A stretch of 64,000 nt of DNA from Pararoseomonas sp. SCSIO 73927 (GTDB lineage Bacteria > Pseudomonadota > Alphaproteobacteria > Acetobacterales > Acetobacteraceae), in assembly GCF_037040815.1 (NCBI RefSeq), contig NZ_CP146232.1, forward strand, positions 434,001 to 498,000, given 5' to 3'. The position numbers and the translations under genes were made by a program. The notes under the pieces are model-generated. The model was given only the letters and a program-made list of their open reading frames with translations. It made no database searches and was not told the DNA's origin. This document shows, in pieces, positions 20,701 through 40,209 of this stretch; the first letter of the stretch is position 1, and each line of letters begins with the position of its first letter.

Positions 20701-20849
20701 GTCTCGTTCAGGTTGGCGAGCTTCAGGGGCCTGACATGGGCCGCCACCGCGGCCTCCGCCTCACTGAAACCCATCGCCCCGAGTGACGTGCCAGCAACGC
20801 CCGCGCCGGCGACCTTCAGCAGGCCGCGCCGCGAGAGTTCCATGTTCAT
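17763..20849 (-). CDS. fdnG: Formate dehydrogenase alpha subunit, selenoprotein (UGA-Sec at residue 200)
   Basis: Catalytic subunit (1028 aa with Sec) of a respiratory, exported formate dehydrogenase: formate to CO2, electrons to quinone through the beta and gamma subunits. The Tat leader [17 protein letters not shown] is followed by the [4Fe-4S] site CTYCSVACG and LCPKG, then the molybdopterin-guanine-dinucleotide fold. An in-frame TGA at 20250-20252 splits the frame. The flanks GFDNQARV and [19 protein letters not shown] match the family exactly where Sec sits in FdnG/FdoG, so the TGA is read as Sec. A gene caller without Sec rules would report a 199-aa and an 824-aa piece. It is the first gene of the fdn-fdhE-sel operon. 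Confidence 0.96.
20220..20252 (-). promoter_or_regulatory. Sec UGA codon and candidate bacterial SECIS hairpin
   Basis: UGA at 20250-20252 followed by a foldable stretch. GGCCC (20242-20246) pairs with GGGCC (20222-20226). Inside, a smaller stem with a bulged A and a short apical UGU loop can form. A bacterial SECIS lies just downstream of the UGA within the coding sequence and is bound by SelB's C-terminal domain. The position is right; the apical details are my own hand folding. Confidence 0.6.
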
Positions 20850-22255: not shown

Positions 22256-23404
22256 ATGTTCCTCCTCCTCGGCCTGGTTCCGGTCGCGATCTGGCTCGTC
22301 ATGCTCCTCGCGCGCGGCGGCTTCTGGCTGTGCCGGGAGCGGGACAGCCGTGACCCCGCGCCGGAGCCGGCAATCTGGCCCCGGGTGGTCGCCGTGGTGC
22401 CCGCCCGGAACGAGGCGGACGTGATCGCCCACTCCATCGGCAGCCTGCGTGCGCAGGACTATCCCGGCCCCTTCTCCGTGATCCTGGTGGATGACGGCAG
22501 CACGGACGGCACCGCCGAGGCCGCGAGCGCCACCACCGGCCGCGCCCCGCTGGAGGTGCTGCGGGGCGAGCCCCTACCCGCGGGCTGGACGGGCAAGCTC
22601 TGGGCCCTCTCCCAGGGCGTGCGCCATGCCGGCAGCAGCCCGGACTACGTCCTGCTGACCGATGCCGATATCGGCCACACCCCCGACAACCTGCGCGCCC
22701 TGGTGGCGCGGGCGGAGGCGGGGCGGCACTCCCTCGTCTCCCTCATGGCCGAGCTCTCCTGCGCCACGGCGGCGGAGCGCTTCCTGATCCCGGCCTTCGT
22801 GTTCTTCTTCGGGATGCTCTACCCCTTCCGCTGGGTGGCGGATGCCCGCGCCCGGACGGCCGCCGGCGCCGGCGGCTGCATGCTGGTGCGGCGGGATGCG
22901 CTGCAGCGCATCGGCGGCATCGCCGCCATCCGCACCGCCATCATCGACGATTGCAACCTGGCCCGCCGCCTCAAGGAGACCGGGCCCATCCGGCTGGACC
23001 TGACCCGGCGTGCCCGCAGCCTGCGCCCTTATGGCGGGGTGGCCGAGATCGGGCGGATGGTCTCCCGCTCCGCCTATGCCCAGCTCGGCTACTCGCCGCT
23101 GCTGCTGGCCGGGACGGTGCTGGGGATGGTTCTCACCTACCTCCTTCCCCCGACCCTCGCGGTGTTCGGGGAGGGGTATGCGCGGATCGCGGGGCTGGCC
23201 GCCTGGGCGATGATGGCGCTTGCCTTCCAGCCCATGCTCCGCTTCTACCGCGTCTCCCCGCTCGGTTCCGTCCTGTGGGGGCTGGCACTGCCGGTGATCG
23301 GGGCGGCCTATACGTGGTTCACCCTGCAATCCGCCCTACAGGTCTGGCGGGGCAAGGGCGGGATGTGGAAGGGACGGGCCCAGGCCATGGCGGGCGGCGC
23401 ATGA
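22256..23404 (+). CDS. hpnB: Hopene-associated glycosyltransferase HpnB
   Basis: 382 aa family 2 glycosyltransferase found in hopanoid operons. An N-terminal membrane segment (MFLLLGLVPVAIWLVMLLA) is followed by the GT-A core VVAVVPARNEADVIAHSI, the nucleotide-sugar motif VILVDDGSTDGT and a DADIGH acidic motif. Two or three C-terminal membrane segments follow (LLLAGTVLGMVLTYLLPP and others). It starts 3 bp after hpnA and its end overlaps shc by 4 nt. The sugar and acceptor are not established for HpnB; action on the hopanoid side chain is inferred from context. Confidence 0.9.
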   Translation: MFLLLGLVPVAIWLVMLLARGGFWLCRERDSRDPAPEPAIWPRVVAVVPARNEADVIAHSIGSLRAQDYPGPFSVILVDDGSTDGTAEAASATTGRAPLEVLRGEPLPAGWTGKLWALSQGVRHAGSSPDYVLLTDADIGHTPDNLRALVARAEAGRHSLVSLMAELSCATAAERFLIPAFVFFFGMLYPFRWVADARARTAAGAGGCMLVRRDALQRIGGIAAIRTAIIDDCNLARRLKETGPIRLDLTRRARSLRPYGGVAEIGRMVSRSAYAQLGYSPLLLAGTVLGMVLTYLLPPTLAVFGEGYARIAGLAAWAMMALAFQPMLRFYRVSPLGSVLWGLALPVIGAAYTWFTLQSALQVWRGKGGMWKGRAQAMAGGA

Positions 23405-25368
23405 AGGACGTGCCGGGCGATCTCCTCTCCGAGGCCGAGCCCTCGCTGGGCGCCGTCGAGGCCGGGATCTCCCGCGCCTCCGAGGCGCTGCTGCGGCAGC
23501 AGCGTGAGGACGGCCACTGGGTCTTCGAGCTGGAGGCCGACGCCACCATCCCCGCCGAGTACGTGCTGCTGCGCCAGCACCTGGCCGAGCCCGACGACCT
23601 GGAGTTGGAGCGCAGGATCGGCAACTACCTGCGCCGCATCCAGGGCGACCATGGCGGCTGGCCCCTGTTCCACGGCGGTGCGTTCGACATCAGCGCCTCC
23701 GTCAAAGCCTATTTCTGCCTGAAGATGATCGGGGACAGCCCGGACGCGCCGCACATGGCCCGCGCCCGCGCCGCCATCCTCGCCCATGGCGGCGCCGGGC
23801 GCGCCAACGTCTTCACCCGCATCCTGCTGGCCATGTACGGGGAGATTCCCTGGCGCCGCGTCCCCACCATCCCGGTGGAGATGATCCTGCTGCCGCGCTG
23901 GTTCCCCGTTCATATCGGCCGCATGTCCTACTGGGCGCGCACCGTGCTGGTCCCGCTGCTGGTGCTGCAGGCCATGCGCGTGCGCGCCCGCAACCCGCGG
24001 GGCGTGCGGATCCAGGAACTTTTCGCCCCGCGCCGCCTGGCCTGGAGGCGGGCGCGCAGCCACAAGCACCCGGGCTGGGCCCTGTTCTTCAACGGGCTGG
24101 ATGGCGGGCTGAAGGTGGCCGAGCCCTTCTGGCCGCGCACCCTGCGGAAGCAGGCCATCGACCGCTGCGTGGCCTTCGTGACAGAGCGGCTGAACGGCGA
24201 GGACGGGCTGGGCGCGATCTACCCGGCCATGGCGAACGCCGTGATGATGTACGACGCGCTGGGCTACCCGGCGGACCACCCGGACCGCGCCATCGCCCGC
24301 CACTCCGTCGAGAAGCTCCTCGTGATCCGCGAGGACGAGGCCTACTGCCAGCCCTGCGTCTCCCCAGTCTGGGACACGGCGCTGACGGCCCACGCCATGC
24401 TGGAGGTGGGCGGCGAGGCCGCCGAGGCCGCCGCCGCGCGCGGCCTGGAATGGCTAAAGCCGCTTCAGGAGCTGGAGGTGAAGGGCGACTGGGCGGAGGT
24501 GCGCCCGCATGTCCGCCCGGGCGGCTGGGCCTTCCAGTACCGCAACGCCCACTACCCCGACCTGGACGACACCGCCGTGGTGGTGATGGCCATGGACCGC
24601 GCCCGCGGCCAGATGGGCCTGGACGCGCGCTACGACGAGGCGATTTCCCGCGGCACGGAATGGACCGTCGGGCTGCAGAGCGGCGATGGCGGCTGGGGCG
24701 CCTTCGACGCCGACAACACGCACTTCTACCTCAACAACATCCCCTTCGCCGACCACGGCGCCCTGCTGGACCCGCCCACCGCCGACGTCTCCGCCCGCTG
24801 CGTTTCCATGCTCGCCCAACTCGGAGAGACGCGGGAGAACCCGCGGATGCGCGCCGCGCTGGACTACCTGGAGCGGGAGCAGGAGGCGGATGGGAGCTGG
24901 TTCGGCCGCTGGGGCGTGAACTATATCTACGGCACCTGGTCCGCCCTCTGCGCCCTCAACGCCGCCGGGCTGGACGGCACCACCTCCTCCGTCCGCCGCG
25001 CGGCGGACTGGCTGATCGCCATCCAGAACCCCGATGGCGGCTGGGGCGAGGACTGCTCCAGCTACAAGCTGGACTACCGGGGCTTCGAGCCCGCCCCCTC
25101 CACCGCCTCCCAGACCGCCTGGGCCCTGCTGGGGCTGATGGCCGCCGGCGAGGTGGACCACCCGGCCGTGGCGCGCGGGGTCGAGTACCTGCGCGCGACC
25201 CAGGGCGAGGACGGGCTCTGGGCGCAGGACCACTACACGGGCGGCGGCTTCCCGCGCGTCTTCTACCTCCGCTACCACGGCTACCCGAAGTTCTTCCCCC
25301 TCTGGGCCATGGCGCGGTTCCGCAACCTGAAGCAGGGCAACGCGGCGCGGCCCCTGCACGGGATGTGA
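23401..25368 (+). CDS. shc: Squalene-hopene cyclase
   Basis: Shc/HpnF (655 aa) cyclises squalene to hopene/hopanol at the inner membrane. The catalytic DXDD motif is D387-L-D-D390 in YPDLDDTAVVVMAM. Several QW repeats, typical of terpene cyclases, are seen, including QREDGHWVFE, QGDHGGWPLF, LQSGDGGWGAFD and IQNPDGGWGED. Start ATG 23401 (MKDVPGDLLSEAEPSLG) overlaps hpnB by ATGA, and the stop overlaps the hpnG GTG, so translation is coupled through the operon. The squalene synthesis genes hpnCDE are not in the window. Confidence 0.98.
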   Translation: MKDVPGDLLSEAEPSLGAVEAGISRASEALLRQQREDGHWVFELEADATIPAEYVLLRQHLAEPDDLELERRIGNYLRRIQGDHGGWPLFHGGAFDISASVKAYFCLKMIGDSPDAPHMARARAAILAHGGAGRANVFTRILLAMYGEIPWRRVPTIPVEMILLPRWFPVHIGRMSYWARTVLVPLLVLQAMRVRARNPRGVRIQELFAPRRLAWRRARSHKHPGWALFFNGLDGGLKVAEPFWPRTLRKQAIDRCVAFVTERLNGEDGLGAIYPAMANAVMMYDALGYPADHPDRAIARHSVEKLLVIREDEAYCQPCVSPVWDTALTAHAMLEVGGEAAEAAAARGLEWLKPLQELEVKGDWAEVRPHVRPGGWAFQYRNAHYPDLDDTAVVVMAMDRARGQMGLDARYDEAISRGTEWTVGLQSGDGGWGAFDADNTHFYLNNIPFADHGALLDPPTADVSARCVSMLAQLGETRENPRMRAALDYLEREQEADGSWFGRWGVNYIYGTWSALCALNAAGLDGTTSSVRRAADWLIAIQNPDGGWGEDCSSYKLDYRGFEPAPSTASQTAWALLGLMAAGEVDHPAVARGVEYLRATQGEDGLWAQDHYTGGGFPRVFYLRYHGYPKFFPLWAMARFRNLKQGNAARPLHGM

Positions 25369-25952
25369 GCGGGGCGCCGCGCCCCGTCCTCGTGGCAACG
25401 GGACTGCTGCGGGAGGCCCGGATCCTGTCCGGGCCGGGGGTTCAGGTGGTGGCCGGCGGCGGGGATGCCGCCCGGCTGGAGGCGAAGCTGGACCGACAGG
25501 CTCCGGGCGCCGCCGGCATCCTCAGCATCGGCATCGCCGGCGGGCTGGCGCCGGGGCTGCGGCCCGGCGACTGGGTGGTGGACGGCGATCCCGCCTGGGC
25601 GGCCCGGCTCGCCGCCGCACTTGGCGCCCGGCGGGGTGGCATCATCGGGCAGGACCGGATGGCAGCCGACACGGCGGAAAAGGCAGCCCTGAACCGGGGC
25701 ACCGGTGCCCTGGCGGTGGACATGGAATCCCACGTCGCCGCCCGCGTAGCGGCCCGCCACGGCCTTCCCTTCGCGGCGGCCCGCGTCGTCTCGGACGGCG
25801 CGGACCGAAGCCTTCCTCCCGCCGCGCGGGTGGGGATGCGGCCGGATGGCGGGATGGACCTGCCGGCCGTGCTGCTCTCCCTGGCCCGCAACCCCCTCCA
25901 GCTCCCCGCCCTGATCCGGACGGGGTGGGAGGCGGAGCGGGCCTTCCGGGCG

Positions 25953-27164
<1,212 letters not shown>

Positions 27165-27721: not shown

Positions 27722-28654
27722 ATGTCGTCGAGTCCTGCCGAGGCCGTCCCTCTCGACAGCCCTACCGTTGCCGCCGCCGACCACACCGCCCGCCACTGGA
27801 CCTTTGACGAGCCCGGCCCCGTGCGGATCGGCAGCGACGCGCACATGCGGATGTTCGCGCGGATGCTGCTGGAGACGCACAACCCCTACAAGCCGCGCGT
27901 GCTGGACTGGCCGAAGCTGGACCCGGAGGCCCATGCCCGGCTGACGGGCCTGCCGATCTGGGATATCGCGGTCCAGACGGAGGGCCGCGCCTCGCTGCGC
28001 GTCCACGACTACGCCCGCACCATCACGGACCCGCTGCTGAACGAGGCCATGGTGATGGATGCCGAGGAGGAGGCGCGCCACAAGCGGGTGCTGTCCAACC
28101 TCGTGGAAGCCTACGGCGTCGTGCTGGAGCCGGAGCCGGAGTACACGGGCTTTCGCGACGTGGAATGGGGCTGGATGCGCACCGGCTACTCCGAGTGCAT
28201 CGACAGCTTCTTCGCCTTCGGCCTCTTCGAGGCCGCCCGCCGCTCCGGCTTCTTTCCCCCCGACCTCGTCGGCACCTTCGAGCCGGTGATCCAGGAGGAG
28301 AGCCGCCACATCCTCTTCTTCCAGAACTGGGCCGCCTGGCAGCGGGCGCGGCAGCCCCTGTGGCGCAAGCCGTACTTCCTGGCGAAGACGGCGGCCGTCT
28401 GGGCCGTGCTGCTCTGGGACCGCTTCGTGCTGGCGCGCGACATGGGCGGCTCCTCCTCCCAGACGAACTTCACGGCGAACTCGGACTCCATCGGCGTCAC
28501 CATGAGCCCGGCGGAGCTGATGCGGATCTGCCTGGAGGAGAACGACCGGCGGCTGGCGGGCTACGACAAGCGCCTGCTGCGGCCGAACACCGTGCCCTTC
28601 TTCGTGCGCCTCGCCCTGCGCTTCATGAAGAAGCCAGCCCCCACCGCGGCGTGA
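27722..28654 (+). CDS. Ferritin-like di-iron domain protein
   Basis: 310 aa soluble protein. Two ExxH motifs are seen, E117-x2-H120 in DAEEEARHKRV and E193-x2-H196 in VIQEESRHILFF. They lie about 75 residues apart with further glutamates between them (SECIDSFFAFGLFE), the pattern of a four-helix di-iron carboxylate protein. Such proteins are often oxygenases or oxidases rather than iron stores. It starts at ATG 27722 and is followed after 6 bp by a CDP-alcohol phosphotransferase, on the edge of an aminoethylphosphonate pathway. A role as an oxidative tailoring enzyme for a phosphonate or lipid is inference. Substrate unknown. Confidence 0.75.
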   Translation: MSSSPAEAVPLDSPTVAAADHTARHWTFDEPGPVRIGSDAHMRMFARMLLETHNPYKPRVLDWPKLDPEAHARLTGLPIWDIAVQTEGRASLRVHDYARTITDPLLNEAMVMDAEEEARHKRVLSNLVEAYGVVLEPEPEYTGFRDVEWGWMRTGYSECIDSFFAFGLFEAARRSGFFPPDLVGTFEPVIQEESRHILFFQNWAAWQRARQPLWRKPYFLAKTAAVWAVLLWDRFVLARDMGGSSSQTNFTANSDSIGVTMSPAELMRICLEENDRRLAGYDKRLLRPNTVPFFVRLALRFMKKPAPTAA

Positions 28655-28660
28655 CGTAGC

Positions 28661-29251
28661 GTGAGCAGCAACACCGTCATCCACCGGATCGTCCGCCCGG
28701 CCGTGCGGGCGATCGCGCCCACGGGGATCACCCCGAACACGATCACCACGGCCCGCTTGGTCAGCGGGATCGCGGCCGCTGTCGCGCTGGGCCTGGATGC
28801 TGGCAGCTGGCAGGCGATTGGGGCGGGGATCTTCCTCCTCTCCATGCTGCTGGACCGGGCGGACGGGGAGCTGGCCCGCTCCACCGGCCAGACCAGCGCG
28901 GCCGGGCATCGGTACGACCTGTTCAGCGACTGCTTCTCCAACATGATCGCCTTCATCGGCATCGGCGTGGGGCAGGTGGAGAACCTGGGAGGCACCGGGC
29001 CGATCCTGGGCGCGGCGGCGGGGATCGCGATCGGCGCGATCTTCTGGCAGCTCCACGTCCTCCGCATCGGCACGTTGCGGGGCTGGGAGCCGACCCCCGG
29101 GATCATCATCGACCCGGACGACCTCCTCGCCCTCGTTCCCGTGCTGATCTGGATAGGTGCGGCGGTGCTGATGCTCTGGGTCGCGGCGGTGGTCACGCCG
29201 CTGGGCGCGCTCCTGCTCGCCCTCACCGGCACGCGGCGGCAGCGGGCCTGA
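28661..29251 (+). CDS. CDP-alcohol phosphotransferase (candidate AEP-lipid synthase)
   Basis: 196 aa integral membrane enzyme of the CDP-alcohol phosphatidyltransferase family. The full signature is present: D65-x2-D68-G69-x2-A72-R73-x8-G82-x3-D86-x3-D90. Several hydrophobic spans follow (GIAIGAIFWQL, LLALVPVLIWIGAAVLMLWV). The family transfers a phospho-alcohol between a CMP-linked donor and an alcohol. Beside a pathway for aminoethylphosphonate and two nucleotidyltransferases, the likely donor is CMP-AEP and the acceptor diacylglycerol, giving a C-P bonded lipid; this is inferred. Start is GTG 28661. The stop abuts the phnW stop on the other strand (TGATCA). Confidence 0.88.
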   Translation: MSSNTVIHRIVRPAVRAIAPTGITPNTITTARLVSGIAAAVALGLDAGSWQAIGAGIFLLSMLLDRADGELARSTGQTSAAGHRYDLFSDCFSNMIAFIGIGVGQVENLGGTGPILGAAAGIAIGAIFWQLHVLRIGTLRGWEPTPGIIIDPDDLLALVPVLIWIGAAVLMLWVAAVVTPLGALLLALTGTRRQRA

Positions 29252-30337
29252 TCAGGCGGGGGCCAGGACCGCCTCCACCGCCGCCAGCAGCCGCTCGAGA
29301 TCCGCGCGGCCGAGCGCGCCGATGCAGCCGATGCGGAAGGTCTCGGCCCTCGTCAACTTGCCCGGGTAGATGAGGAAGCCGCGCTCGGCCAGCGCGTCGT
29401 AGAAGGGGCGGAAGGCCAAGCTCTCCGGCAGACGGAAGGTGGCGATGATCGGGGCCTGCAGGGCCTCGTCCAGGAAGAGCTCGAAGCCCAGGCGGCGCAT
29501 CCCCACCAGCAGGGTGCTCAGGTTGTCCGCGTAGCGGGTCAGCCGCGCGGGCTGTCCGCCCTCGGCCTCGAAGGCGCGCAGGGCCTCGACGAGCGCCGCC
29601 ACCACCTGCACGGGCGGGGTGAAGCGCCACTGGCCGTCCCCCTCGAACCCCTTCCACTGGGCGTGCAGGTCGAAGGACAGGGAGGGGCTCCTCCCGGCTG
29701 CCGCCTCCAGCGCCGCGGGCGTGACCAGCGCGAAGCCGATTCCCGGCACCCCCTCCAGGCATTTGTTGGAGGAGGCGAGGACGGCGGTGACGGGCGTGGC
29801 CGAGAGATCCAGCGGCAGGGCGCCGAAGCTGCTCATCGCGTCCAGCAGGAAGGCCCTCCCGGCCTCGGCGACAACGGCCGCCACCTCCTCCAACGGGTTC
29901 AGCAGCCCGGTCGTCGTCTCGCAGTGGACCAGCGCGACATGGGTGATGGCGGGGTCGGCCCGCAGCGCCTCCGCCACGCGCGCCGCCTCCACCGCGCGGT
30001 CCTCCGGCCAGCGCAGGGCCGTCACGGCGCGGCCCATCCGCTCGGCGATGGTCACCATCCGCTCACCATAGGCGCCGTTGACCAGCACCAGCAGCTTGTC
30101 CCGCGGCCCGACCAGCGTGGCGACCGCCGCCTCAACGATGAAGGTGCCGGAACCCTGGAGGGGCACGGCCGCGTGCGTCCCCTCCCCCTTCGCCGCGCGC
30201 AGCAGCCCGGCCCGCAGTTCCGCCGTCAGCGCGATGAAGGCGGGATCGCGCGATCCCCAGTCCCGCAGCATCGCGCGGCGCGTCCCGGCGGCGGTCGTCA
30301 GCGGACCCGGCGTGAGGAGGATGGGGCTGTCGCTCAT
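29252..30337 (-). CDS. phnW: 2-aminoethylphosphonate:pyruvate transaminase
   Basis: 361 aa class V PLP aminotransferase that interconverts phosphonoacetaldehyde and 2-aminoethylphosphonate (AEP). The N terminus SPILLTPGPLTTAAGTRRAM is characteristic. The GSGTFIVEA loop, DAMSSFGALP and the PLP lysine K192 in SSNKCLEGVPG are visible. In a cluster with PEP mutase and phosphonopyruvate decarboxylase it works in the biosynthetic direction and forms AEP. It overlaps the upstream membrane-protein gene by ATGA and is the last of four coupled genes. Confidence 0.93.
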   Translation of the reverse strand: MSDSPILLTPGPLTTAAGTRRAMLRDWGSRDPAFIALTAELRAGLLRAAKGEGTHAAVPLQGSGTFIVEAAVATLVGPRDKLLVLVNGAYGERMVTIAERMGRAVTALRWPEDRAVEAARVAEALRADPAITHVALVHCETTTGLLNPLEEVAAVVAEAGRAFLLDAMSSFGALPLDLSATPVTAVLASSNKCLEGVPGIGFALVTPAALEAAAGRSPSLSFDLHAQWKGFEGDGQWRFTPPVQVVAALVEALRAFEAEGGQPARLTRYADNLSTLLVGMRRLGFELFLDEALQAPIIATFRLPESLAFRPFYDALAERGFLIYPGKLTRAETFRIGCIGALGRADLERLLAAVEAVLAPA

Positions 30338-31320
30338 GTCGCACCTCTGGCTTCGGCGGGCCGCGCGCCCGCCACGCTAAGGCGCCAGGCGATCACGCCC
30401 GGCACGCCGAGGATGATGTCGCGGATACGCCGGATCAGCACCAGCGCGATCGCCTTGTCCGGGGGAATGCCGAAGAGGGCGCAGATCAGCACGTAGCCCC
30501 CCTCCTGCACCCCCAGGGCGCCGGGAATGAAGAACCCGGCGCTGCGCACGGCCTGGCCGAGGCTCTCGATCACCAGCGCCTCCGCCAGCCCGGCCTCGAT
30601 CCCCACGGCCCGCATCGCCGCCCAGGTCTCGACCACGCCGACGAGCCAGGAAACCATGTGCCACCCCCCGCTGCGCCAGAGCCGCCCGGGCTGGGCGTAG
30701 AGGTGCTGCACCGTGTCGTTCAGGCCGGAGAGCTCGCCGAGCGAGGTCCAGCCCACCCGGGCCGCCAGCTTCGGCAGCATGCCCTCCACCGCCTTGAACA
30801 GCCCCCAGCGCTGGGCGGCGATGAAGACCCCCGTCACCCCCGCCCCCAGCGCCGTGCCGGCGACCGCCCAGAAGGTGGCGGAGGTGCCGGCCGCGTGCGG
30901 GATCAGCAGCAGCGCCGCCAGCCCCATGAGGGAGAAGACGATCTGGGATGCCATCTCCGTGCCCAGGTCGATGGCGAGGCTGGCGATCACCTTCACCTTC
31001 GCCACGCCCATGCGGACGAGGAGCTGCGCCCGGATCAGCTCCCCCATCGCCTGCACGATCGGCAGCAGGGCGTTGGTGGAGACGCGCACCCAGCGCAGGA
31101 AGGCCAGCCCCGCCACGCCCGGCCGCCGCGGGTCGTCGATCAGCGGCCCCCAGCCGAGGCCGGAGGCGACGATCTGAAGCCCGTTCAGCGCCAGCACCGC
31201 CAGCATCCACCAGCCGCTGTCCAGCAGCATCCGCAGGATGGCGGCGGGGTCGTTGGTGGCGATGAGCGCGACGGCGATGGCCAGCCCAACCGCGAGGCTG
31301 ACGATGGTGGAGAGGATCAC
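30334..31320 (-). CDS. Lysylphosphatidylglycerol-synthase-type membrane protein (HpnL-like candidate flippase)
   Basis: 328 aa polytopic protein of the UPF0104/LPG_synthase_TM family, without any synthetase domain. Around seven or eight membrane spans are visible, from [20 protein letters not shown] to PGALGVQEGGYVLICALFG; the GxLGVQEGG segment is a family hallmark. HpnL, found in hopanoid clusters, belongs to this family. Start is GTG 31320 in a GTGA overlap with the decarboxylase gene; its end overlaps phnW. Sitting between two AEP enzymes, it could move an AEP-lipid or hopanoid across the inner membrane. That role is inferred. Confidence 0.8.
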   Translation of the reverse strand: MILSTIVSLAVGLAIAVALIATNDPAAILRMLLDSGWWMLAVLALNGLQIVASGLGWGPLIDDPRRPGVAGLAFLRWVRVSTNALLPIVQAMGELIRAQLLVRMGVAKVKVIASLAIDLGTEMASQIVFSLMGLAALLLIPHAAGTSATFWAVAGTALGAGVTGVFIAAQRWGLFKAVEGMLPKLAARVGWTSLGELSGLNDTVQHLYAQPGRLWRSGGWHMVSWLVGVVETWAAMRAVGIEAGLAEALVIESLGQAVRSAGFFIPGALGVQEGGYVLICALFGIPPDKAIALVLIRRIRDIILGVPGVIAWRLSVAGARPAEARGAT

Positions 31321-32453
31321 GCCGTCACGAAGTCCCGGAACCGCCGCGCCACGTCGGCGGGATTCACTGTGGGCCGGCCCAGCACCGCCATGGAGCCCGG
31401 CGCGATCCGCAGGTGGATCATCGCCGGCCCGCCGGCCGCGAGCGCCGCGCGGAAGGCGCCCTCGAACCCCTCCAGCGAGGAGGCGGAGGCGGCGTAGCGG
31501 TAGCCGCAGGCCAGGGCGATCGCCGCGAAGTCCACGGAGGGCGAGACCGTGGCCTGCCCGCCCGTGGAATCGTGCACGCCATTGTCCAGCAGCACGTGCA
31601 CCAGCCCTTTCGGCGCGTAGGCCCCGATGGTGGCGAAGGTGCCGAGCTTCATCAGCGCCGCGCCGTCGCCGTCCAGCACCACCACGGGCTTGTCCGTGTT
31701 CAGCGCCACGCCGAGCCCCATGCCGCTGGCCCCGCCCATGGAGCCGACCTGGTAGAGGTGCTGCTTCCGGTCCGCGAGCGTGAACAGTTCCCGCCCGCAC
31801 TTGCCGGTGGTGGCGATCACCGCCGCCTCCTCCGGCACGATCGACAGGAAGCGCTCCAGCACCGCCGCGCGGGCGGGCCGCTCGCCGGAAGCCGGGAAAT
31901 CCTCGCGCCGCCCGGGCACGGGCAGGGCGCGCGGGGGCTGGTTCAGCGCCCGCTCCTCCACGTCGTCCTTCCGCACGACGAAGGCGTAGGGCAGCCCCGT
32001 CTCCTCCATGCGCGCGGCGGCATGGTCCAGCGCCGGGCCCAGCGCCTGCCGCGCCCGCGGGAAGGGCGCCTGCTCCAGCCGCATCAGCGCGATCAGGTCC
32101 TGGGTGATCCCCCCCATGATCTCGTGCTGCGGCTCGTCGGGGATGCCCGGCTCGCCGCGCCACGTCGTCAGGAACAGGGTGGGGATGCGGAAGGGGTGGT
32201 TCAGCGAGGTCAGCGGGTTCACCGCGTTCCCCAGCCCGGAGTTCTGGCACATCACCACCGTCCGCCGCCCGGCCAGCCAGGCGCCGGAGGCGATCGCCAC
32301 CGCCTCCCCCTCGCTCGCCGCGCCCACGTAGTTCAGCGCGGGCGTGGAGAGCACGCCGTTGATGAGAGGCGTGAGAAAGCTGCAGGGCACGCCCGTGTAG
32401 AAGTCGAAGCCGGCGCGCCCCGCTTCCTCGATGAAGTCGTCGGCCTTGATCAT
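31317..32453 (-). CDS. aepY: Phosphonopyruvate decarboxylase
   Basis: 378 aa thiamine-diphosphate enzyme: phosphonopyruvate to phosphonoacetaldehyde plus CO2, the irreversible pull for PEP mutase. The N-terminal part has [15 protein letters not shown] and the conserved glutamate region [15 protein letters not shown]. The C-terminal ThDP/Mg motif runs from [14 protein letters not shown] to [16 protein letters not shown] 32453 overlaps the PEP mutase stop (ATGA). The sulfopyruvate decarboxylase family is similar, but the PEP mutase neighbour settles the substrate. Confidence 0.95.
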
Positions 32454-34090
32454 GTGAAGTTGCGGGCTTCCGCCAGATCCGTCAGGGTGTCCACGTCCAG
32501 CCAGTGGCCGCTGAAGTACTTCACGCGCACCGGGTGCTTCGCGGCAAGGCGCGTCAGCAGCAGCGGCATGTCCGCGCCCTCCAGCACGCCCTCCTCCTCC
32601 ATCGCCGCGATCTCCTCGCGCAGCCATTCGGCGCCGCGGGCGGTGAAGCGGGCCAGGCCCATCCACTCGCCGTGGCACTCCGCCGCCGGCACGTCGGCGG
32701 CCAGCCGCACCAGATGTGCGGGCCGGTCGTCCAGGTAGTCGCCGGAGAAACGGCGATCCGCCGTCACCAGGTCGCGGTGCCCCGGCCGCGGGCGCGCGCC
32801 CAGCGTGTCCACGGCCACCACCACGTCGGCCCGGCTGGTCAGCAGGCTGTCCAGGATGTAGCGGCGGAACAGCACGTCGCCATAGGCCACCACCGTCTCG
32901 CCCCTGATGGCGTCGCGCGCACAGGCCAGGGACATCGCCTCGCCCGTGGTTGCGTGGCGGTCATTGTCCACCATCCGCACGCCCTGCAGCGTCACCGCCT
33001 CCTTGCGCTCGCCCCGCACCACGGAGACGTCGCGCACGCCGCTCTCGCGCAGCGTGCCCACGAGGCGCTGCAGCAGGGACTGGCCGCGAATGTCCAGCAT
33101 GCATTTCGGCCCGTCGCCGGCGACCCCCTCCAGGCTCCCGCCCCCGGCGGCGAGGACCACGGCGGAGGGCGCGGGCTTGCTCGGCAGGTAGCGGCGCTCC
33201 GCCTCCTCCAGCTCGGCATTGCCCATCAGCCGGAAGATGTCCTTCACGGTGGCGACGCTGCCCTCCACGCGCATCAGGGACTCGTCCTCGTGGATGCGCG
33301 CGGCCGTCTCCCGCATCGCGGCCATGGAGGCGCGCAGCAGGTGGTTCGCCCAGATGATGGTGGAGATGCCGGCCTGCCGGTACAGGTCCGTCGGCGTCGC
33401 GTAGTACATGGTCGGCACGATCACCAGCGGCGCGCGGTTGCCCCAGCGCTGCGCGAAGGTGAAGATCTCGTCCGCGTTGGACTTCTTGGAGTGGATAAGG
33501 ATCGCGTCCGCGCCGGCCTGATGATAGGCCTCCGCGCGCCGCAGCGCCTCCTCCATGGAATGGCCGGAGATCAGCGCCTCCACGCGGGCCACCAGCACGA
33601 AGTCGTCGTCGGTCTGGCTGTCCTTGCCTGCCTTGATGCGGCCGCAGAACTCGTCCACGTCCGCCAGCGGCTGCGCCTCCCCGATGAAGGAGTTCGTCTT
33701 CGGGAAGAGCTTGTCCTCGATGCACACGCCGGCGATGCCGCGCTCGCAGAGCTTGCGGACGAAGCGGCGGACGTTGTTGAAGTTGCCGTGCCCCGTGTCG
33801 CCATCCACCAGGATGGGCAGGGTGGTGGCGTCCGCCATGTACTCCAGCACCTCCAGCACCTGCGTCCAGGACGCCTCGTTGCTGTCGCGCAGGCCCAGCG
33901 CGGCGGAGGTGGTGAGGCCGGAGGCCCAGACGCCGCGGAACCCCGCCTCCTGCACGATCTTGGCCGAGAGCCCGTCATGCGCCTCCATCAGGAAGGAGAG
34001 GCTGGACGAGGCGATCTCCCGCCGCAGGGCGGCGAAGCGGGTGGCAGGGGCATCAAGGGGGCGGGTGCCCGGCGGGCTGGCGTGACTCAA
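32450..34090 (-). CDS. aepX: Phosphoenolpyruvate mutase fused to a nucleotidyltransferase-like domain
   Basis: About 546 aa. Residues 20-300 are PEP phosphonomutase, which makes the C-P bond (PEP to phosphonopyruvate). The diagnostic EDKx5NS motif is E125 to S134 in [13 protein letters not shown], with [19 protein letters not shown] and VDGDTGHGN also seen. Residues from about 309 form a sugar/alcohol-phosphate nucleotidyltransferase domain as in PepM-PntC fusions, expected to make CMP-AEP. Its signature is [20 protein letters not shown], where the usual arginine after GxG is missing, so activity is uncertain. TTG 34090 is preferred as start because AAAGGGA precedes it; an in-frame ATG at 34156 would add 22 unlikely residues. 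First gene of a four-gene coupled operon. Confidence 0.93.
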
Positions 34091-34203
34091 GGCGTTTCCC
34101 TTTGGGCGGCGTGGCCGGAAAGCCCGGCAGGATGGCCGCCCTTGTCCGCCTTCCATAGTAACTTTACCTTCACACGGAAGAGCCGCCTATCCGGAAGCCC
34201 GTC

Positions 34204-34959
34204 TTGCCCGTTCACGCCGCCACCCCCACCGCGATCATCCTGGCCGCGGGGGTGGGGCGCCGGCTCGGCGCCGCGCATGAGGGCCCGAAGATCCTGCTGG
34301 AGTTCGGCGGCCGCACCCTCCTCCACCGTCACCTCGAGGCCCTGGCCGCGAACGGCATTCGCCGGGTCAGCATGACAGTCGGCTACGAGCGCGGGCTGAT
34401 CGAGGCGGAGGTGGCCCGGATCGGCTGGGCGGACCGCGTCTCCTTCGTCGGAAACCCGGATTTCCGGGAAGGCAGCCTCGTCTCCCTCGCGGTGCAGGAC
34501 GCGGTGTTGCGGGCCGGGCCCGTGCTGCTGATGGACGGGGACGTGCTCTACGATCCCCGCATGATCGGCGCCCTGCTGGACGCGCCGGGGGAGAACGTGC
34601 TGCTGCTGGACCGGGAGATCGAGCCGGGCGACGAGCCCGTGAAGATCTGCTTCCGGGGCGACACCATCGTGGATTTCCGCAAGGTGCCGGAGCACGCGCA
34701 CGACCGGCACGGCGAATCGGTAGGCTTCTTCCGCTTCTCCGCCGAGACCGCCACCGCCCTGGCCGATCGCTGCCGGTTCCATGTCCAGGCCGGGCACAGG
34801 GGGCTGGAGTACGAAGAGGCCATCCGGGACCTGATCCTGGCCGGGCCGGCCCGCTTCCGGGCGCACGACATCACCGCCCTGCCCTGGGTGGAGATCGATT
34901 TCGAGGAGGACATCCTCCGCGCCCGGCGCGATATCCTGCCGCAACTCGACGCCGCCTGA
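34204..34959 (+). CDS. Stand-alone nucleotidyltransferase (phosphocholine/AEP cytidylyltransferase-like)
   Basis: 251 aa GT-A fold NTP transferase. The intact signature AIILAAGVGRRLGAAHEGPK, the metal site LLMDGDVLYD and the C-terminal LPWVEIDFEEDIL are seen. Closest by look are LicC-like phosphocholine cytidylyltransferases. Start is TTG 34204, the only reasonable start before the signature. It is divergent from the PepM fusion gene with about 113 bp between. Because the fused domain there lacks a key arginine, this protein may be the real AEP-activating enzyme or may activate a second head group. Substrate inferred. Confidence 0.82.
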   Translation: MPVHAATPTAIILAAGVGRRLGAAHEGPKILLEFGGRTLLHRHLEALAANGIRRVSMTVGYERGLIEAEVARIGWADRVSFVGNPDFREGSLVSLAVQDAVLRAGPVLLMDGDVLYDPRMIGALLDAPGENVLLLDREIEPGDEPVKICFRGDTIVDFRKVPEHAHDRHGESVGFFRFSAETATALADRCRFHVQAGHRGLEYEEAIRDLILAGPARFRAHDITALPWVEIDFEEDILRARRDILPQLDAA

Positions 34960-34994
34960 TTTCCCGGGGCGGCCAACCCCGCTAAGGCGAAGGC

Positions 34995-37625
34995 GTGACC
35001 CCCCGATCCTCCCCTGCCGGGCGCCCGTCCCTCACCGGACGCCTCGTCGCCCTCAGCGCCGCGCGCCCCTGGGCCGTCCTCCTCCTCGGCCTGATCCTGG
35101 CCGCCGGCGCCGCGCACTACGCTGCCCGGCACTTCGCCATGACCACCGACACGGCGGAGCTGATCTCCACCGACCTCGTCTGGCGCCAGCGGGAGATCGC
35201 CTATGACCGGGCCTTCCCCGGGCAGGAGGACCTGGTCGTCGCCGTGGTGGATGGCGCGACCCCCGAGATCGCAGAGAGCGCCGCCGCCCGGCTGGCCGAG
35301 GCCCTCGCCGCCCGGCCGGACCTCTTCCGCAGCGTGCGCCGCCCCGATGGCGGCCCCTTCTTCGACCGGAACGGCCTCCTCCTCCTGCCGCTGGAGGAGG
35401 TGCAGGCGGGCATGGAAGGCCTCATCCGCGCCCAACCCTTCCTCGGGCCGCTGGCGGCCGATCCCAGCCTGCGGGGCGTGGCGGGCGCCCTCTCCACCGT
35501 GCTGCAGGGCGTGGCGCTCGGGCAGGCGCGGCTGGCCGACATCCAGCCCGCCGCCACCGCCCTGGCCGGGACCTTCGAAGCGCTGCTGGCCGGCCGGCCC
35601 GCCCCCTTCTCCTGGCGTGCCCTCTTCTCCGGCGGCCCGCCCAACCCGCGGGAGCTGAGGCGCTTCGTCCTGGTGCAGCCCGTGATGGACTTCACCGCCC
35701 TCCAGCCCGGGAGAGCGGGCACCGAGGCCCTGCAGGAGACGGCCGCGCGGCTGGGCCTGGACCCCGCCCACGGCGTCACCATCCGCCTGACCGGCCCCGT
35801 GCCCCTGGCCGACGAGGAGTTCGCCAGCCTTGCCGAGGATATGGACGTGGTGGCCGTCGCCATGGTTCTGGCGCTGGTGGGGATCGTCTGGTTCGCCGTG
35901 CGATCCGCCCGGTTCATGGCGGCCATCCTCTTCACCACCCTCATCGGGCTCGTCATCACCGCGGGGCTCGGGCTGCTGGCGATCGGGCGCTTCAACCTCA
36001 TCTCCGTCGCCTTCATCCCCCTCTTCGTGGGCCTGGGCGTGGATTTCAGCATCCAGCTCTCCATGCGCGCCCTGGCGGAGCGGCTGAACCACCCCGACCT
36101 GCGGGACGCCCTGGCCGAGGCCGGGCGCGGCGTCGGGCGGGGGCTGGCCCTGGCCGCGGCCGCCATCGCGGCGGGGTTCTTCGCTTTCCTCCCCACCTCC
36201 TATGTCGGCGTGGCCGAGCTGGGCGCCATCGCCGGGCTGGGCATGGGCATCGCCTTCCTCCTCACCGTCACCCTGCTGCCGGCGCTGCTGGTGCTGATGC
36301 GCCCGCCCGCCGGCGGGCGAGCGGAATTCGGATACGCCGCCCTCGCCCCAGTGGAGCGGCTGCTGGAGCGGGAGCGCCGCCCCGTGCTGATCGGCGCCGG
36401 GCTGGTGGCCCTGGCCTGCCTCGCCGCGCTGCCCTTCGTGCGCTTCGACTTCAACCCGCTGCACCTCCGCAACCCCGGCGCGGAATCCATGACCACCTTG
36501 CGGGACATCTCAGCCGATGCGGATCGCACGCCGAACACGATCAGCGTCCTGCTCCCCACCAGGGCGGAGGCGGAAGCGATGGCTCGCCGGCTGGAGACCC
36601 TGCCGGAGGTGCTGCGGACGGTCAGCCTCGCCACCTTCATCCCCTCCCGTCAGGAGGAGAAGCTGGCCTTCGTCGGGGACGCCGCCGGCCTCCTCGGCCC
36701 CGTGCTGGAGGGGGTGCAGCCCCTGCCCCCGCCGGATGACGCGGAGCGTGCCCGCGCCCTGCAGGGCACCGCGGAAGCCCTGCGCCGCACGGCCGGTGAT
36801 GCCGGGGACCCCGCCGCTGGGGCCGCCCGCCGGCTGGCGGATGCAATGGCCAGCCTCGCTACCGGCACCCCGGCGCAGCGCGCGGCGGCGGACGAGGCCG
36901 TCTCCGCCCCGCTCCGCGTACTGCTCGCCCAACTCCGCGCCCTGCTCTCCGCCGGCCCGGTGACCGAGGCCGACCTGCCGCCCGACCTCGTGGCCGACTG
37001 GCGCACCGCCGATGGCCGCTGGCGGGTGGAGGCCTACCCGCGCGGCAACCCGAACGACAACGATAACCTCGTCCGCTTCTCGGACGCCGTGCTGGCCGTG
37101 GCGCCGGAGGCGGTGGGGCCGCCCATCTCCATCCAGGCGGCGGGTGGCATGGTGGTCTCCGCCTTCATCCAGGCCGGGCTCCTCTCCTTCATCGCCGTCA
37201 CCGCCCTGCTGGCCCTGGTGCTGCGCCGTGTCCGGGACGTGGTGCTGACAATGCTGCCGGTGCTGCTCAGCGGGTTGCTGACGCTCGCCACCTGCGCCGC
37301 GCTGGACCTGCCGCTGAACTTTGCCAACATCATCGCCCTGCCCCTGCTCTTTGGCATCGGCGTGGCCTTCAACGTCTACTTCGTCGTCGCCTGGCGGGCG
37401 GGGGAGCACCACCTGCTGCAGTCCAGCCTCATGCGGGCGGTGATCTTCAGCGCGCTGACCACGGCGACGGCCTTCGGCGCCCTCTGGCTCTCCACCCATC
37501 CCGGCACGGCGAGCATGGGGCGGCTGCTGATGATCTCGCTGGGCTGGGAAATCCTCGTCACCCTGCTCATCCGCCCCGCCCTGCTGGCCCGGCCGCCCGA
37601 GGAGAGGGCCGTGAAAGCCGCCTGA
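34995..37625 (+). CDS. hpnN: HpnN-like RND/MMPL lipid exporter
   Basis: 876 aa RND-superfamily protein with two halves. Each half has one N-terminal span, a large periplasmic loop and a block of five spans. Spans include PWAVLLLGLILAAGAA near the start, VVAVAMVLALVGIVWFAV, VAFIPLFVGLGVDFSIQL, and in the second half FIQAGLLSFIAVTALLALVL and ANIIALPLLFGIGVAFNVYF. HpnN exports hopanoids to the outer membrane in other alphaproteobacteria. Start is GTG 34995. With mlaA directly after and the mlaC-like gene convergent, it appears to form a transport route. General MMPL alternatives cannot be excluded. Confidence 0.85.
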   Translation: MTPRSSPAGRPSLTGRLVALSAARPWAVLLLGLILAAGAAHYAARHFAMTTDTAELISTDLVWRQREIAYDRAFPGQEDLVVAVVDGATPEIAESAAARLAEALAARPDLFRSVRRPDGGPFFDRNGLLLLPLEEVQAGMEGLIRAQPFLGPLAADPSLRGVAGALSTVLQGVALGQARLADIQPAATALAGTFEALLAGRPAPFSWRALFSGGPPNPRELRRFVLVQPVMDFTALQPGRAGTEALQETAARLGLDPAHGVTIRLTGPVPLADEEFASLAEDMDVVAVAMVLALVGIVWFAVRSARFMAAILFTTLIGLVITAGLGLLAIGRFNLISVAFIPLFVGLGVDFSIQLSMRALAERLNHPDLRDALAEAGRGVGRGLALAAAAIAAGFFAFLPTSYVGVAELGAIAGLGMGIAFLLTVTLLPALLVLMRPPAGGRAEFGYAALAPVERLLERERRPVLIGAGLVALACLAALPFVRFDFNPLHLRNPGAESMTTLRDISADADRTPNTISVLLPTRAEAEAMARRLETLPEVLRTVSLATFIPSRQEEKLAFVGDAAGLLGPVLEGVQPLPPPDDAERARALQGTAEALRRTAGDAGDPAAGAARRLADAMASLATGTPAQRAAADEAVSAPLRVLLAQLRALLSAGPVTEADLPPDLVADWRTADGRWRVEAYPRGNPNDNDNLVRFSDAVLAVAPEAVGPPISIQAAGGMVVSAFIQAGLLSFIAVTALLALVLRRVRDVVLTMLPVLLSGLLTLATCAALDLPLNFANIIALPLLFGIGVAFNVYFVVAWRAGEHHLLQSSLMRAVIFSALTTATAFGALWLSTHPGTASMGRLLMISLGWEILVTLLIRPALLARPPEERAVKAA

Positions 37626-37689
37626 CGTCACAGGCTCGTGCTGGAAAGGATGCTGGGCGGCGGCGGCCGGCTCCGCTTATGATTCCGTG

Positions 37690-38433
37690 ATGGTCCAAGC
37701 CTCGATTCGCGCCCTGCTCCTCCTGGGCGCCCTCTCCCTCGGCGCCTGCGCCACCCGGAACGCCGATGGCGTGGCCTCCGCTACCCCGGGCGACCCCTGG
37801 GAGGCGACGAACCGCGACGTGCTGGACGCCAACCTGGCCGTGGACGACGCCGTGCTGAAGCCCGTGGCCCAGGGATACCGGGCCGTGGTGCCGGAGCCCG
37901 TCCGCACCGGCGTCCGCAACGTGCTGGACAACATCCAGGAGCCGCGGATCCTCGTGAACAACCTTCTCCAGGGCCGCTTCCTGGATGCCGGGCACACGAC
38001 GATGCGCTTCTTCTTCAACTCCACCGTCGGGCTGGGCGGCATCTTCGACGTGGCCACCGATTTCGGGATCGCCCGCCGCACCGGCGATTTCGGCCAGACC
38101 CTCTATTCCTGGGGGCTGGAGGACGGGCCCTTCGTCATGCTGCCCCTCGCCGGCCCTTCCAACGTGCGGGACACGGTGGGGCTGGTGGCGGACGGCTTCA
38201 CCAACCCCCTCACCTACTTCATCCCCTTCGAGGGCAACGTGGCCCGCGCCGTGGTGGGCGGCGTGGACCTGCGGGAACAGAACATCGAGAACCTGGACGC
38301 CCTGCGCAGCGGCTCGCTGGACTTCTACGCGCGGCTGCGCAGCGTGTGGCAGCAGCGGCGGGACGTGGAGCTGGGCCGCACCGGCGACGTGGGCGACAGG
38401 ATCGACGTGCTGGAGGACCCGGGGGCGCGGTAG
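37690..38433 (+). CDS. mlaA: MlaA/VacJ-family outer-membrane lipoprotein
   Basis: 247 aa. Lipoprotein signal with lipobox LSLGAC (LLLLGALSLGAC), then the family start DPWEATNRDVLDANLAVDDAV. Other landmarks are RILVNNLLQGRFLDA, FFFNSTVGLGGIFDVATD and NPLTYFIPFEG. MlaA removes misplaced lipids from the outer leaflet in the Mla pathway. Start ATG 37690 is preferred over the adjacent GTG 37687. It follows the hpnN-like gene by 64 bp on the same strand. No mlaFEDB genes are in view, so here it may partner the RND protein. Confidence 0.92.
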   Translation: MVQASIRALLLLGALSLGACATRNADGVASATPGDPWEATNRDVLDANLAVDDAVLKPVAQGYRAVVPEPVRTGVRNVLDNIQEPRILVNNLLQGRFLDAGHTTMRFFFNSTVGLGGIFDVATDFGIARRTGDFGQTLYSWGLEDGPFVMLPLAGPSNVRDTVGLVADGFTNPLTYFIPFEGNVARAVVGGVDLREQNIENLDALRSGSLDFYARLRSVWQQRRDVELGRTGDVGDRIDVLEDPGAR

Positions 38434-38439
38434 CCCCCT

Positions 38440-39054
38440 TTACCCCTGCAGCAGCGCCGCGGTGCGGCGCTGAAGGTCCGCCACCAGCCGCTCCGCCCCG
38501 CCATCCCGCAGCAGCGCCCCGAACTCGGAGCGGCGGGAGGCCAACTCGCTGATCGTGCCGGTCAGGTACACGTCCACGATGCGGAACCCCGCGCTGCCGG
38601 AGCGGAGAAGGTAGTTCAGCTGCACCGGCGCGTCGTTCACCCGGTTCAGCGTCGTCCGCACCATGCGGTCCCCGTTCTGCAAGGCCTGCTCACCCGTGGT
38701 GGTGAAGCTCTCGCCGGAGAAGCCCTTGAACTGGCTGGCGTAGTTGGCCGTCGTCCAGTCGGAGAAGGCCTGCACCAGCCGCGCCTGCGCGTCGGGTGCG
38801 ATCCCGGTCCAGGCCGGGCCCACCGCGATGCGCGTCATCGCCGGCAGGTCGAAGGCGGCGTCCATGGCCGGGCGCAGCCGCTCGTAGCGGCCGCGCGCGC
38901 CCAACTGGGTGGCGTTCCGCATCAGCTCGATCAGCGTGGCGTGGAAGCGCTCCACCACCGCGCGCGGGTCGGCCGCCTGGGCGAGTGCGAGGCCCGGCAC
39001 GGCGGCGGCCAGGGCACCGAGGAGGAGGCGGCGGGAGGGGCGGGAGTCCTGCAT
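38440..39054 (-). CDS. MlaC/Ttg2D-family periplasmic lipid-binding protein (HpnM-like)
   Basis: 204 aa. The leader MQDSRPSRRLLLGALAAAVP resembles a Tat signal, with cleavage near LALAQA. The mature domain matches Ttg2D/MlaC: RFHATLIELMRNATQLGARG, DLPAMTRIAVGPAWTGI and the C-terminal FRIVDVYLTGTISELASRR. MlaC-type proteins carry lipids across the periplasm; HpnM in hopanoid clusters belongs to this family. ATG 39054 is chosen since it starts the leader. It converges with mlaA, 6 bp between stops, closing the lipid region. Confidence 0.9.
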   Translation of the reverse strand: MQDSRPSRRLLLGALAAAVPGLALAQAADPRAVVERFHATLIELMRNATQLGARGRYERLRPAMDAAFDLPAMTRIAVGPAWTGIAPDAQARLVQAFSDWTTANYASQFKGFSGESFTTTGEQALQNGDRMVRTTLNRVNDAPVQLNYLLRSGSAGFRIVDVYLTGTISELASRRSEFGALLRDGGAERLVADLQRRTAALLQG

Positions 39055-40081: not shown

Positions 40082-40209
40082 GCCTTTCCTCCACTGCACT
40101 TTCTTCAAAGCTTCCGTTCTCGTCGCGTGCTCGGCGCTTGCGCCACCGCCCTCGCGCTTGCCACGATGACGGCACGTCGCCGCCGGAGAGCGGCCGAACG
40201 GAGGACACC

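Follow-up and report, generated by a model that had tools for sequence, protein, structure and literature searches.

An aminoethylphosphonate gene module apparently built into the hopanoid and outer-membrane lipid genes of Pararoseomonas

Why should genes for making a phosphonate lie among genes for making and exporting hopanoids? This question is posed by a 64,000-nucleotide stretch of the 5.6 Mb genome of Pararoseomonas sp. SCSIO 73927 (contig NZ_CP146232.1, positions 434,001 to 498,000; hereafter the window, with coordinates counted from its first letter), in which a pathway to aminoethylphosphonate (AEP) is merged with genes for lipid transfer, flipping and export. We propose that the locus encodes a module for an AEP head group, integrated into the system that handles hopanoids and outer-membrane lipids, a reading to which we give a probability of about 60%. 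L and G numbers in brackets are our handles for loci and genomes. The ten genes of the AEP interval are listed below, with bit scores given against the cut-off of each model; CMP is cytidine monophosphate, PEP phosphoenolpyruvate and NT a nucleotidyltransferase.

27722..28654, plus strand: ferritin-like putative diiron oxygenase, 6 bp upstream of the next gene
28661..29251, plus strand: CDP-alcohol phosphotransferase (CDP-AP), proposed CMP-AEP:lipid AEP-transferase (PF01066, 47 against 22 bits)
29252..30337, minus strand: phnW/aepZ, AEP aminotransferase (NF010006, 484 against 296; TIGR02326, 432 against 401; TIGR03301, above cut-off)
30334..31320, minus strand: hpnL, proposed head-group-specific lipid flippase (TIGR03476, 256.2 against 195.65 bits)
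31317..32453, minus strand: ppd, phosphonopyruvate decarboxylase (TIGR03297, 415 against 312 bits)
32450..34156, minus strand: pepM-NT1, PEP mutase fused to a PF12804 nucleotidyltransferase domain (TIGR02320, 388 against 320 bits; PF13714; PF12804)
about 32450-33166, minus strand: the NT1 domain of pepM-NT1 (PF12804)
34204..34959, plus strand: NT2, PntC-like cytidylyltransferase, divergent from pepM and 35 bp upstream of hpnN (6pd1 PntC, E 9e-22)
34995..37625, plus strand: hpnN, hopanoid RND transporter of a clade found beside such cassettes (TIGR03480, 1005.8 against 751.85 bits)
37687..38433, plus strand: mlaA, outer-membrane lipoprotein of lipid transport (PF04333, 232 against 25 bits)
38440..39054, minus strand: hpnM, periplasmic lipid carrier of the MlaC family (TIGR03481, 193.1 against 160.1 bits)

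Every enzyme class named in the first-pass annotation was found in its place within an intact open reading frame. The genes pepM-NT1, ppd, hpnL and phnW are joined successively by 4-bp overlaps, which are usual for co-translated genes. A curated hopanoid protein, HpnL, is thereby encoded within the AEP operon, and the PntC-like NT2 gene heads the hpnN run. Upstream of the interval, NCBIfam model scores bear out the annotated run of hopanoid genes:

21344..22252, plus strand: hpnA, start codon uncertain, frame open from 21110 (TIGR03466, 431 against 368 bits)
22256..23404, plus strand: hpnB, hopanoid-associated glycosyltransferase (TIGR03469, 515 against 379 bits)
23401..25368, plus strand: shc, squalene-hopene cyclase (TIGR01507, 765 against 431 bits)
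25365..26003, plus strand: hpnG (TIGR03468, 187.1 bits, exactly at the cut-off of 187.1)
25953..27164, minus strand: hpnH, adenosylhopene transferase, the first step to extended hopanoids (TIGR03470, 539 against 225 bits)

The start of hpnA is peculiar in itself. The expected site has no ATG, GTG or TTG, the open frame reaches back to 21110 and the family model aligns only from its position 27 onward, so the start codon is either unusual or mis-sequenced.

The association of the two gene sets extends well beyond this window. In a class-wide sample of 385 genomes, the same set being searched for the PepM-NT1 fusion and for hpnH, all 44 fusion genomes have hpnH compared with 61 of the 341 without the fusion (Fisher test, 5e-29, a value overstated by the relatedness of the genomes). 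Six genomes with weak, unfused PepM matches, two of which have hpnH, are excluded from the 44. By family label, which gives the fairer figure, the fusion occurs in 20 families, all hpnH-positive, compared with 53 hpnH-positive labels among at least 173 (3e-12, likewise overstated). The link to hopanoids that the first-pass annotation had put forward as an inference is thus supported in this class-wide sample. Many of these assemblies are fragmented; fusion and hpnH share a contig in 16 of the 44 genomes and lie within 15 kb of each other in 13, which represent nine families. The pairing is also retained in small genomes, with fusion and hpnH side by side in genomes of 1.2-1.8 Mb (L208-L210) and both present, on separate contigs, in three of 0.9-1.1 Mb (G462, G559, G637).

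The first-pass annotation had also called for a count of the gene neighbourhood across the Acetobacteraceae, and the neighbourhood recurs in other genomes above chance. Our family sample comprised 249 genomes, 58 with a PepM-like match at E 1e-30, and the set followed was the 30 genomes, the window's included, with a PepM-NT1 fusion or a large piece of one. Their recurring gene order is NT2 (divergent), pepM-NT1, ppd, hpnL, phnW, CDP-AP, and hpnH is present in 27 of the 30 (E 1e-60). In all ten fusion genomes of the three nearest genera (g1, g16, g28) hpnH lies at most 12 kb from pepM, either adjoining the ferritin-like gene (five genomes) or with hpnN between (five); the fusion is absent from at least one sampled g16 genome (G016). 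The closest named relative found, Pararoseomonas indoligenes SG15 (L065), has an identical gene order and a PepM-NT protein 93% identical to that of the window, which places the latter among Roseomonas-type members of the Acetobacteraceae.

Rearranged versions of the linkage occur farther afield. From a scan of named genomes we retained the 80 best of 582 loci, and hpnH is present in 51 of the 60 genomes, among those 80, in which it was sought. Two Rhodospirillales metagenome-assembled genomes (MAGs; L083, L087) have the order shc-hpnG-hpnH-ispH-hpnA-NT2-PhyH-pepM-NT1-ppd-CDP-AP-CDP-AP-hpnN-hpnL-mlaC (ispH named by eye), a Phenylobacterium MAG (L073) has a cassette with hpnN, and in Pararobbsia alpina, a member of the Burkholderiaceae (L132/L160), shc-hpnG-hpnB-hpnA-hpnH-hpnN lies beside phnW-ppd-pepM-NT1-NT2-hpnL-CDP-AP. 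In the scan's other loci from Burkholderia, Paraburkholderia and Cupriavidus no such adjacency is seen as far as the loci extend, and each of the genomes searched from these genera has hpnH elsewhere. A cassette with hpnA, hpnB and shc is also present in 'Mycobacterium sp. KBS0706' (L068). The hopanoid/AEP locus on that record (NZ_VCCH02000054.1) looks alphaproteobacterial, and its label is probably wrong.

We mapped 138 fusion loci (22 of 29 from the family, 80 named and 36 of the 44 from the class), which partly overlap, are not deduplicated and are in many cases cut by contig ends. Counting shc, hpnH, hpnN, hpnB or hpnA above set identities as a hopanoid gene, and leaving generic hpnA-like matches of about 30% uncounted, we found one in 37 of the 91 loci that hold NT2, CDP-AP or HpnL compared with 1 of the other 47. 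Hopanoid linkage therefore belongs mainly to the lipid-type cassette rather than to the fusion itself.

The proteins of the interval are consistent with synthesis and activation of AEP. PepM, Ppd and PhnW each score above curated cut-offs, confirming the full pathway initially read from the sequence, and PepM carries the EDKxxxxxNS motif used to separate PEP mutase from its relatives (Rice et al., PMC6697681). Both annotated nucleotidyltransferases are present. Among solved proteins NT2 matches PntC, the AEP cytidylyltransferase, best and over nearly its full length, with LicC behind it (1e-11). Mutation of Arg15, Lys25 or Lys153 reduces PntC activity below 10% (PMC6697681); in an alignment with the Treponema denticola enzyme (Tde-PntC) these residues correspond to R20, K29 and K160, and Glu196 to E204, all invariant across 10 NT2s. 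The NT2 loop reads GVGRR..PK where PntC has GXG(T/S)RX4-8PK, so that the T/S position is arginine, and Glu104 is replaced by D111, as in LicC. We read NT2 as a putative PntC-like cytidylyltransferase. In NT1 the lysine of the PK pair (K351) is invariant and the arginine of the GXG(T/S)R loop is unconserved among 14 fusions, which sets it apart from the PntC type; among solved structures it comes closest to LicC and to sugar nucleotidyltransferases, PntC ranking lower. NT1 and NT2 occur together in 27 of 29 family loci, the exceptions (L061 without NT2, L062 without NT1) being on short contigs. Two activations, or one activation and another role, thus seem to be needed, and we assign neither role to a particular domain.

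Members of the CDP-alcohol phosphotransferase family share the motif DxxDGxxARx8-9GxxxDxxxD, and the window's CDP-AP has it complete at residues 65-90 (DRADGELARSTGQTSAAGHRYDLFSD), as originally described; the protein also weakly matches choline/ethanolamine phosphotransferases. In three loci a second CDP-AP gene, in which the fourth catalytic aspartate is replaced by glycine, adjoins the first (L083:13334-13981, L087:13426-14043 and L090:5661-6302, all minus strand), and this glycine-substituted type adjoins hpnA and NT2 in some class loci.

The protein first called HpnL-like is HpnL by its curated model. It has 328 residues, and its structural model resembles the flippase half of MprF, the lysyl-phosphatidylglycerol synthase/flippase, at 10-13% identity; it comprises the membrane part only, without the cytosolic aminoacyl-transferase domain of MprF. 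A profile search with HpnL against solved structures matched none by sequence, and the MprF likeness comes from fold comparison alone, which supports a flippase-like prediction. The exporter likewise proves to be HpnN, of the type found beside cassettes, and falls narrowly below the NF052374 'hopanoid transporter' equivalog cut-off (1091 against 1100). It belongs to the same family as the BstA/HpnN sterol and hopanoid exporters (PMC10942540), in which BstA is a relative specialised for another lipid, whereas the window's HpnN belongs to an HpnN clade found beside AEP genes. MlaA was correctly identified, and the 'MlaC/HpnM' protein resolves as HpnM.

From the observed enzyme families, motifs, operon structure, recurring linkage, near-strict hpnH co-occurrence and paralogue pattern we infer the following reactions and order of transport. 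PepM, Ppd and PhnW would convert PEP to AEP, which NT2 and/or NT1 would activate to CMP-AEP. CDP-AP would then transfer AEP to a membrane lipid alcohol, HpnL would turn the AEP-lipid to the periplasmic leaflet, and HpnN with HpnM, perhaps also MlaA, would carry it to the outer membrane.

The distribution of HpnL accords with a role linked to head groups. At E 1e-20, HpnL matches occur in 82 of the 385 class genomes, 79 of them hpnH-positive; of the 44 fusion genomes 42 have one, at 1.50 copies each, compared with 37 of the remaining 61 hpnH genomes, at 0.80. HpnL as a gene of phosphonate synthesis only is ruled out by those 37 fusion-free genomes; 33 of the 61 have a match over the curated cut-off. 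HpnL also lies within 6 kb at 24 of 33 loci of HpnI, the enzyme of the glucosamine head-group module, and within 12 kb at 16 of 44 fusion loci. It directly adjoins HpnI in seven genomes (G388, G671, G516, G582, G552, G631, G682), most of which have a separate HpnL elsewhere. The HpnI module thus shares with the AEP module a head-group gene with its own nearby HpnL; it differs in using sugar transfer, not CMP-phosphonate transfer. The two coexist: of the 44 fusion genomes 12 score above the hpnI cut-off, as do 18 of the 61 remaining hpnH genomes (p 0.83), and this lack of mutual exclusion eliminates AEP as an alternative to the HpnI glucosamine.

In a tree of 76 HpnLs (those of L073 and L264 were left out), labels for AEP-, HpnI- and hpnH-linked proteins require 13 changes compared with 33 when shuffled (0 of 200 shuffles as low). 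Nineteen of the 37 AEP-linked HpnLs form one supported clade (97/94) that includes Acetobacteraceae, KBS0706, a Telmatospirillum MAG and others, with two identical rows, and the remaining 18 are scattered over several positions. Three genomes (G322, G394, G674) hold different HpnLs in different contexts. Similarly, in a tree of 51 HpnNs the Roseomonas-type and Phenylobacterium proteins fall in a supported 15-row clade (100/99) with 10 cassette-linked members, other cassette-linked HpnNs being placed elsewhere. One genome (G172) has its cassette HpnN inside this clade and its hpnH-side copy outside, and the single HpnN match in the window's genome belongs to it. HpnL thus looks like a multi-paralogue, head-group-linked family, and the paralogue pattern may reflect head-group-specific flipping and perhaps export.

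Which lipid would receive the AEP? Bacteriohopanepolyol is the most likely candidate, tentatively and at somewhat less than even odds; diacylglycerol, the first choice of the first-pass annotation, comes second as a possible but less favoured acceptor. A hopanoid bearing AEP, which that annotation had listed as its second option, is somewhat favoured by the almost strict dependence on hpnH, by the likeness to the HpnI module and by the presence of HpnN and HpnM.

Several observations weigh against this reading. An hpnH match is missing from three fusion-bearing family genomes (at E 1e-60; G190, 91% complete; G132, 99%; G206, 67%) and from nine of the 60 named genomes, mostly distant relatives (L070, L074, L100, L114, L116, L118, L121, L128, L131). 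Among these, a Caulobacteraceae MAG (L070) has NT2 and HpnL, and, beyond the Proteobacteria-type relatives, a Verrucomicrobiales (L100) and a Polyangiaceae genome (L131) have diverged NT2 and CDP-AP; with G190, these lipid-gene cassettes in genomes without an hpnH match argue against a hopanoid acceptor in particular. The Agrobacterium cavarae locus (L074), like L070 alphaproteobacterial, has neither CDP-AP nor HpnL. Forty-seven of the 138 mapped fusion loci have no lipid gene nearby, and one (L203) adjoins apparent sugar-nucleotide genes, named by eye. At the curated cut-off HpnL is just slightly commoner with the fusion (29/44 compared with 33/61), and AEP-linked HpnLs and HpnNs each need eight label changes, with no single cassette-specific clade. 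As fusion genomes show no depletion of hpnI, the AEP group is not a plain substitute for glucosamine. Rohmer side-chain degradation would be expected to cleave an AEP ester at C-35 as well. By this method Muricoccus pecuniae DSM 25622, whose locus (L067) comprises the entire module together with hpnN, hpnM and mlaA, yielded 0.1 mg/g of summed hopanoid polyols, with one type counted (Sinninghe Damste et al. 2025, PMC12583986), so an AEP-hopanoid was not abundant in that culture.

The best surviving alternative is that the product is AEP-diacylglycerol, an ordinary glycerophosphonolipid analogous to phosphatidylethanolamine that shares only its export route and regulation with hopanoids. Joining CMP-AEP to diacylglycerol is a known route in some protists, CDP-alcohol phosphotransferases commonly take diacylglycerol-type partners, and both this and the choline/ethanolamine phosphotransferase matches of CDP-AP fit such a product, as do the cassettes with NT2 and CDP-AP or HpnL in the four genomes without an hpnH match. 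It leaves unexplained why every fusion genome of the class sample has hpnH and why HpnL paralogues accompany both HpnI and AEP modules. We consider it a serious but, on balance, rather doubtful explanation.

The possibility that AEP instead decorates a glycan, be it lipopolysaccharide, exopolysaccharide or a capsule like that of Bacteroides fragilis, with hopanoid genes as neighbours by chance or co-regulation, appears unlikely. The surface-AEP example worked out in PMC6697681 is a capsule, the Pnt logic there is modelled on Lic, and the apparent sugar-nucleotide genes beside L203 would suit a glycan. However, a Pfam scan of all ten interval proteins found none of LicD or glycan-assembly type, CDP-AP and HpnL belong to membrane-lipid families, and hopanoid linkage is almost restricted to lipid-type loci. 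Slightly less probable again is an accident of history, in which an AEP island was inherited or transferred to a place beside hopanoid genes and shares no product with them. The linkage in Roseomonas-type genomes could be a single ancestral event, relatives not being independent, and most Burkholderiaceae scan loci are non-adjacent; differing gene orders in nine families, the Burkholderiaceae case, retention in genomes of 0.9-1.8 Mb and the unbroken class-wide co-occurrence all speak against it. AEP breakdown, with PhnW as the first catabolic step, is very improbable: proteins of the PhnW family do act in catabolism (PMC8154272), but here the genes of PepM, Ppd and PhnW belong to one operon of overlapping genes, along with enzymes of activation and transfer, and Pfam and NCBIfam scans found no phosphonatase or C-P lyase among the ten interval proteins.

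An AEP module in the hopanoid system would be related to known pathways without matching any of them. The Pnt pathways of Treponema denticola and Atopobium share PepM, Ppd, an AEP transaminase and PntC-type activation, so the CMP-AEP logic is already known, and 33% of Ppm proteins in the Pnt survey carry the PepM-PF12804 fusion (PMC6697681); the window differs in its two separate nucleotidyltransferases, in having CDP-AP, HpnL and HpnN instead of LicD and glycan genes, and in the hopanoid linkage. One earlier report, which we take to be by Guzman and Vilcinskas (2021), anticipated part of that linkage. It described a Roseomonas hybrid cluster at the same loci (R. aerilata DSM 19363, now Muricoccus aerilatus, is our L066, in which the AEP operon accompanies shc-hpnG-hpnH and the sequence stops short of hpnN), noted the adjacency of hopene cyclase and PEP mutase and proposed a 'terpene-phosphonate'; its excerpt contains no HpnL, HpnN or CDP-AP analysis, cross-family test or mechanism (PMC8776678). 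Among the literature matches listed, it alone joins hopanoid and PEP mutase genes and none describes an AEP-hopanoid; nor do these matches mention the class-wide co-occurrence, the rearranged linkages, HpnL in the operon with its MprF flippase fold or the HpnL/HpnN paralogue pattern.

These observations suggest that a hopanoid-linked membrane lipid with a carbon-phosphorus bond has been overlooked. According to the excerpt of the 2025 hopanoid gene survey (PMC12583986), no function is established for hpnA, hpnB or hpnL, nor are further candidate genes evident near hopanoid clusters; in the genomes we studied, the AEP module qualifies as one. If correct, our proposal would give HpnL a function, offer a reason for HpnN paralogues and unite phosphonate and hopanoid lipid fields that have so far been studied separately. 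It would predict an unseen phosphorus-stable membrane lipid in organisms from Roseomonas-type strains to those whose genomes measure some 1 Mb, and environmental phosphonate pools would gain another possible source. A broader and more speculative extension, which we regard as doubtful, is that phosphono-hopanoids with an AEP head group occur across Alphaproteobacteria and some Burkholderiaceae and that the HpnL family comprises head-group-specific hopanoid flippases. Such lipids would have escaped notice because intact-hopanoid methods do not seek a carbon-phosphorus head group.

Two putative oxygenases accompany the cassettes. The ferritin-like protein (27722-28654), whose gene is co-directional with that of CDP-AP, matches no Pfam or NCBIfam family above threshold. 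Its two ExxH motifs are invariant in 34 homologues, and at least 8000 homologues were scored. An AlphaFold2 model (mean confidence score, pLDDT, 88) places it nearest to the R2/R2lox folds, with no close solved family. The gene also occurs near HpnL in the Phenylobacterium MAG; its neighbours in Burkholderia and Paraburkholderia stretches include no hopanoid or phosphonate gene and show no clear function. In Cupriavidus pauculus (L152, G255:C37) a homologue lies directly upstream of hpnB in a hopanoid cluster, on a stretch free of phosphonate genes, and is a candidate for an unassigned hopanoid gene. Our guess is that the ferritin-like protein is an oxygenase acting on the lipid.

The second is a PhyH-type 2-oxoglutarate oxygenase, whose gene is present in 16 of the 29 family loci, including 13 of the 20 that lie outside the three nearest genera, and beside NT2/pepM in many cassettes (e.g. 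L083:9054-9956, L087:9140-9895 and L068:8258-9055, all minus strand). Among solved proteins it comes closest to the PhyH type and to amino-acid hydroxylases, and it may make 1-hydroxy-AEP; the window's genome has no match to it. Replacement of this putative AEP hydroxylase by the ferritin-like protein is ruled out by their co-occurrence in four loci (L040, L042, L043, L073), and the Cupriavidus copy at hpnB contradicts a stand-in role as well.

Two further features flank the system. Two divergent genes for TctC-type solute-binding proteins, named by eye, adjoin hpnM at 39107-41181. On the other side, a formate dehydrogenase-like frame (17763-20849, minus strand) is interrupted by a single in-frame TGA at 20250-20252 (NQARV-stop-HGPTV) and lies close to a tRNA-Sec gene (10926-11022, minus strand); given both, it probably encodes a selenoprotein formate dehydrogenase.

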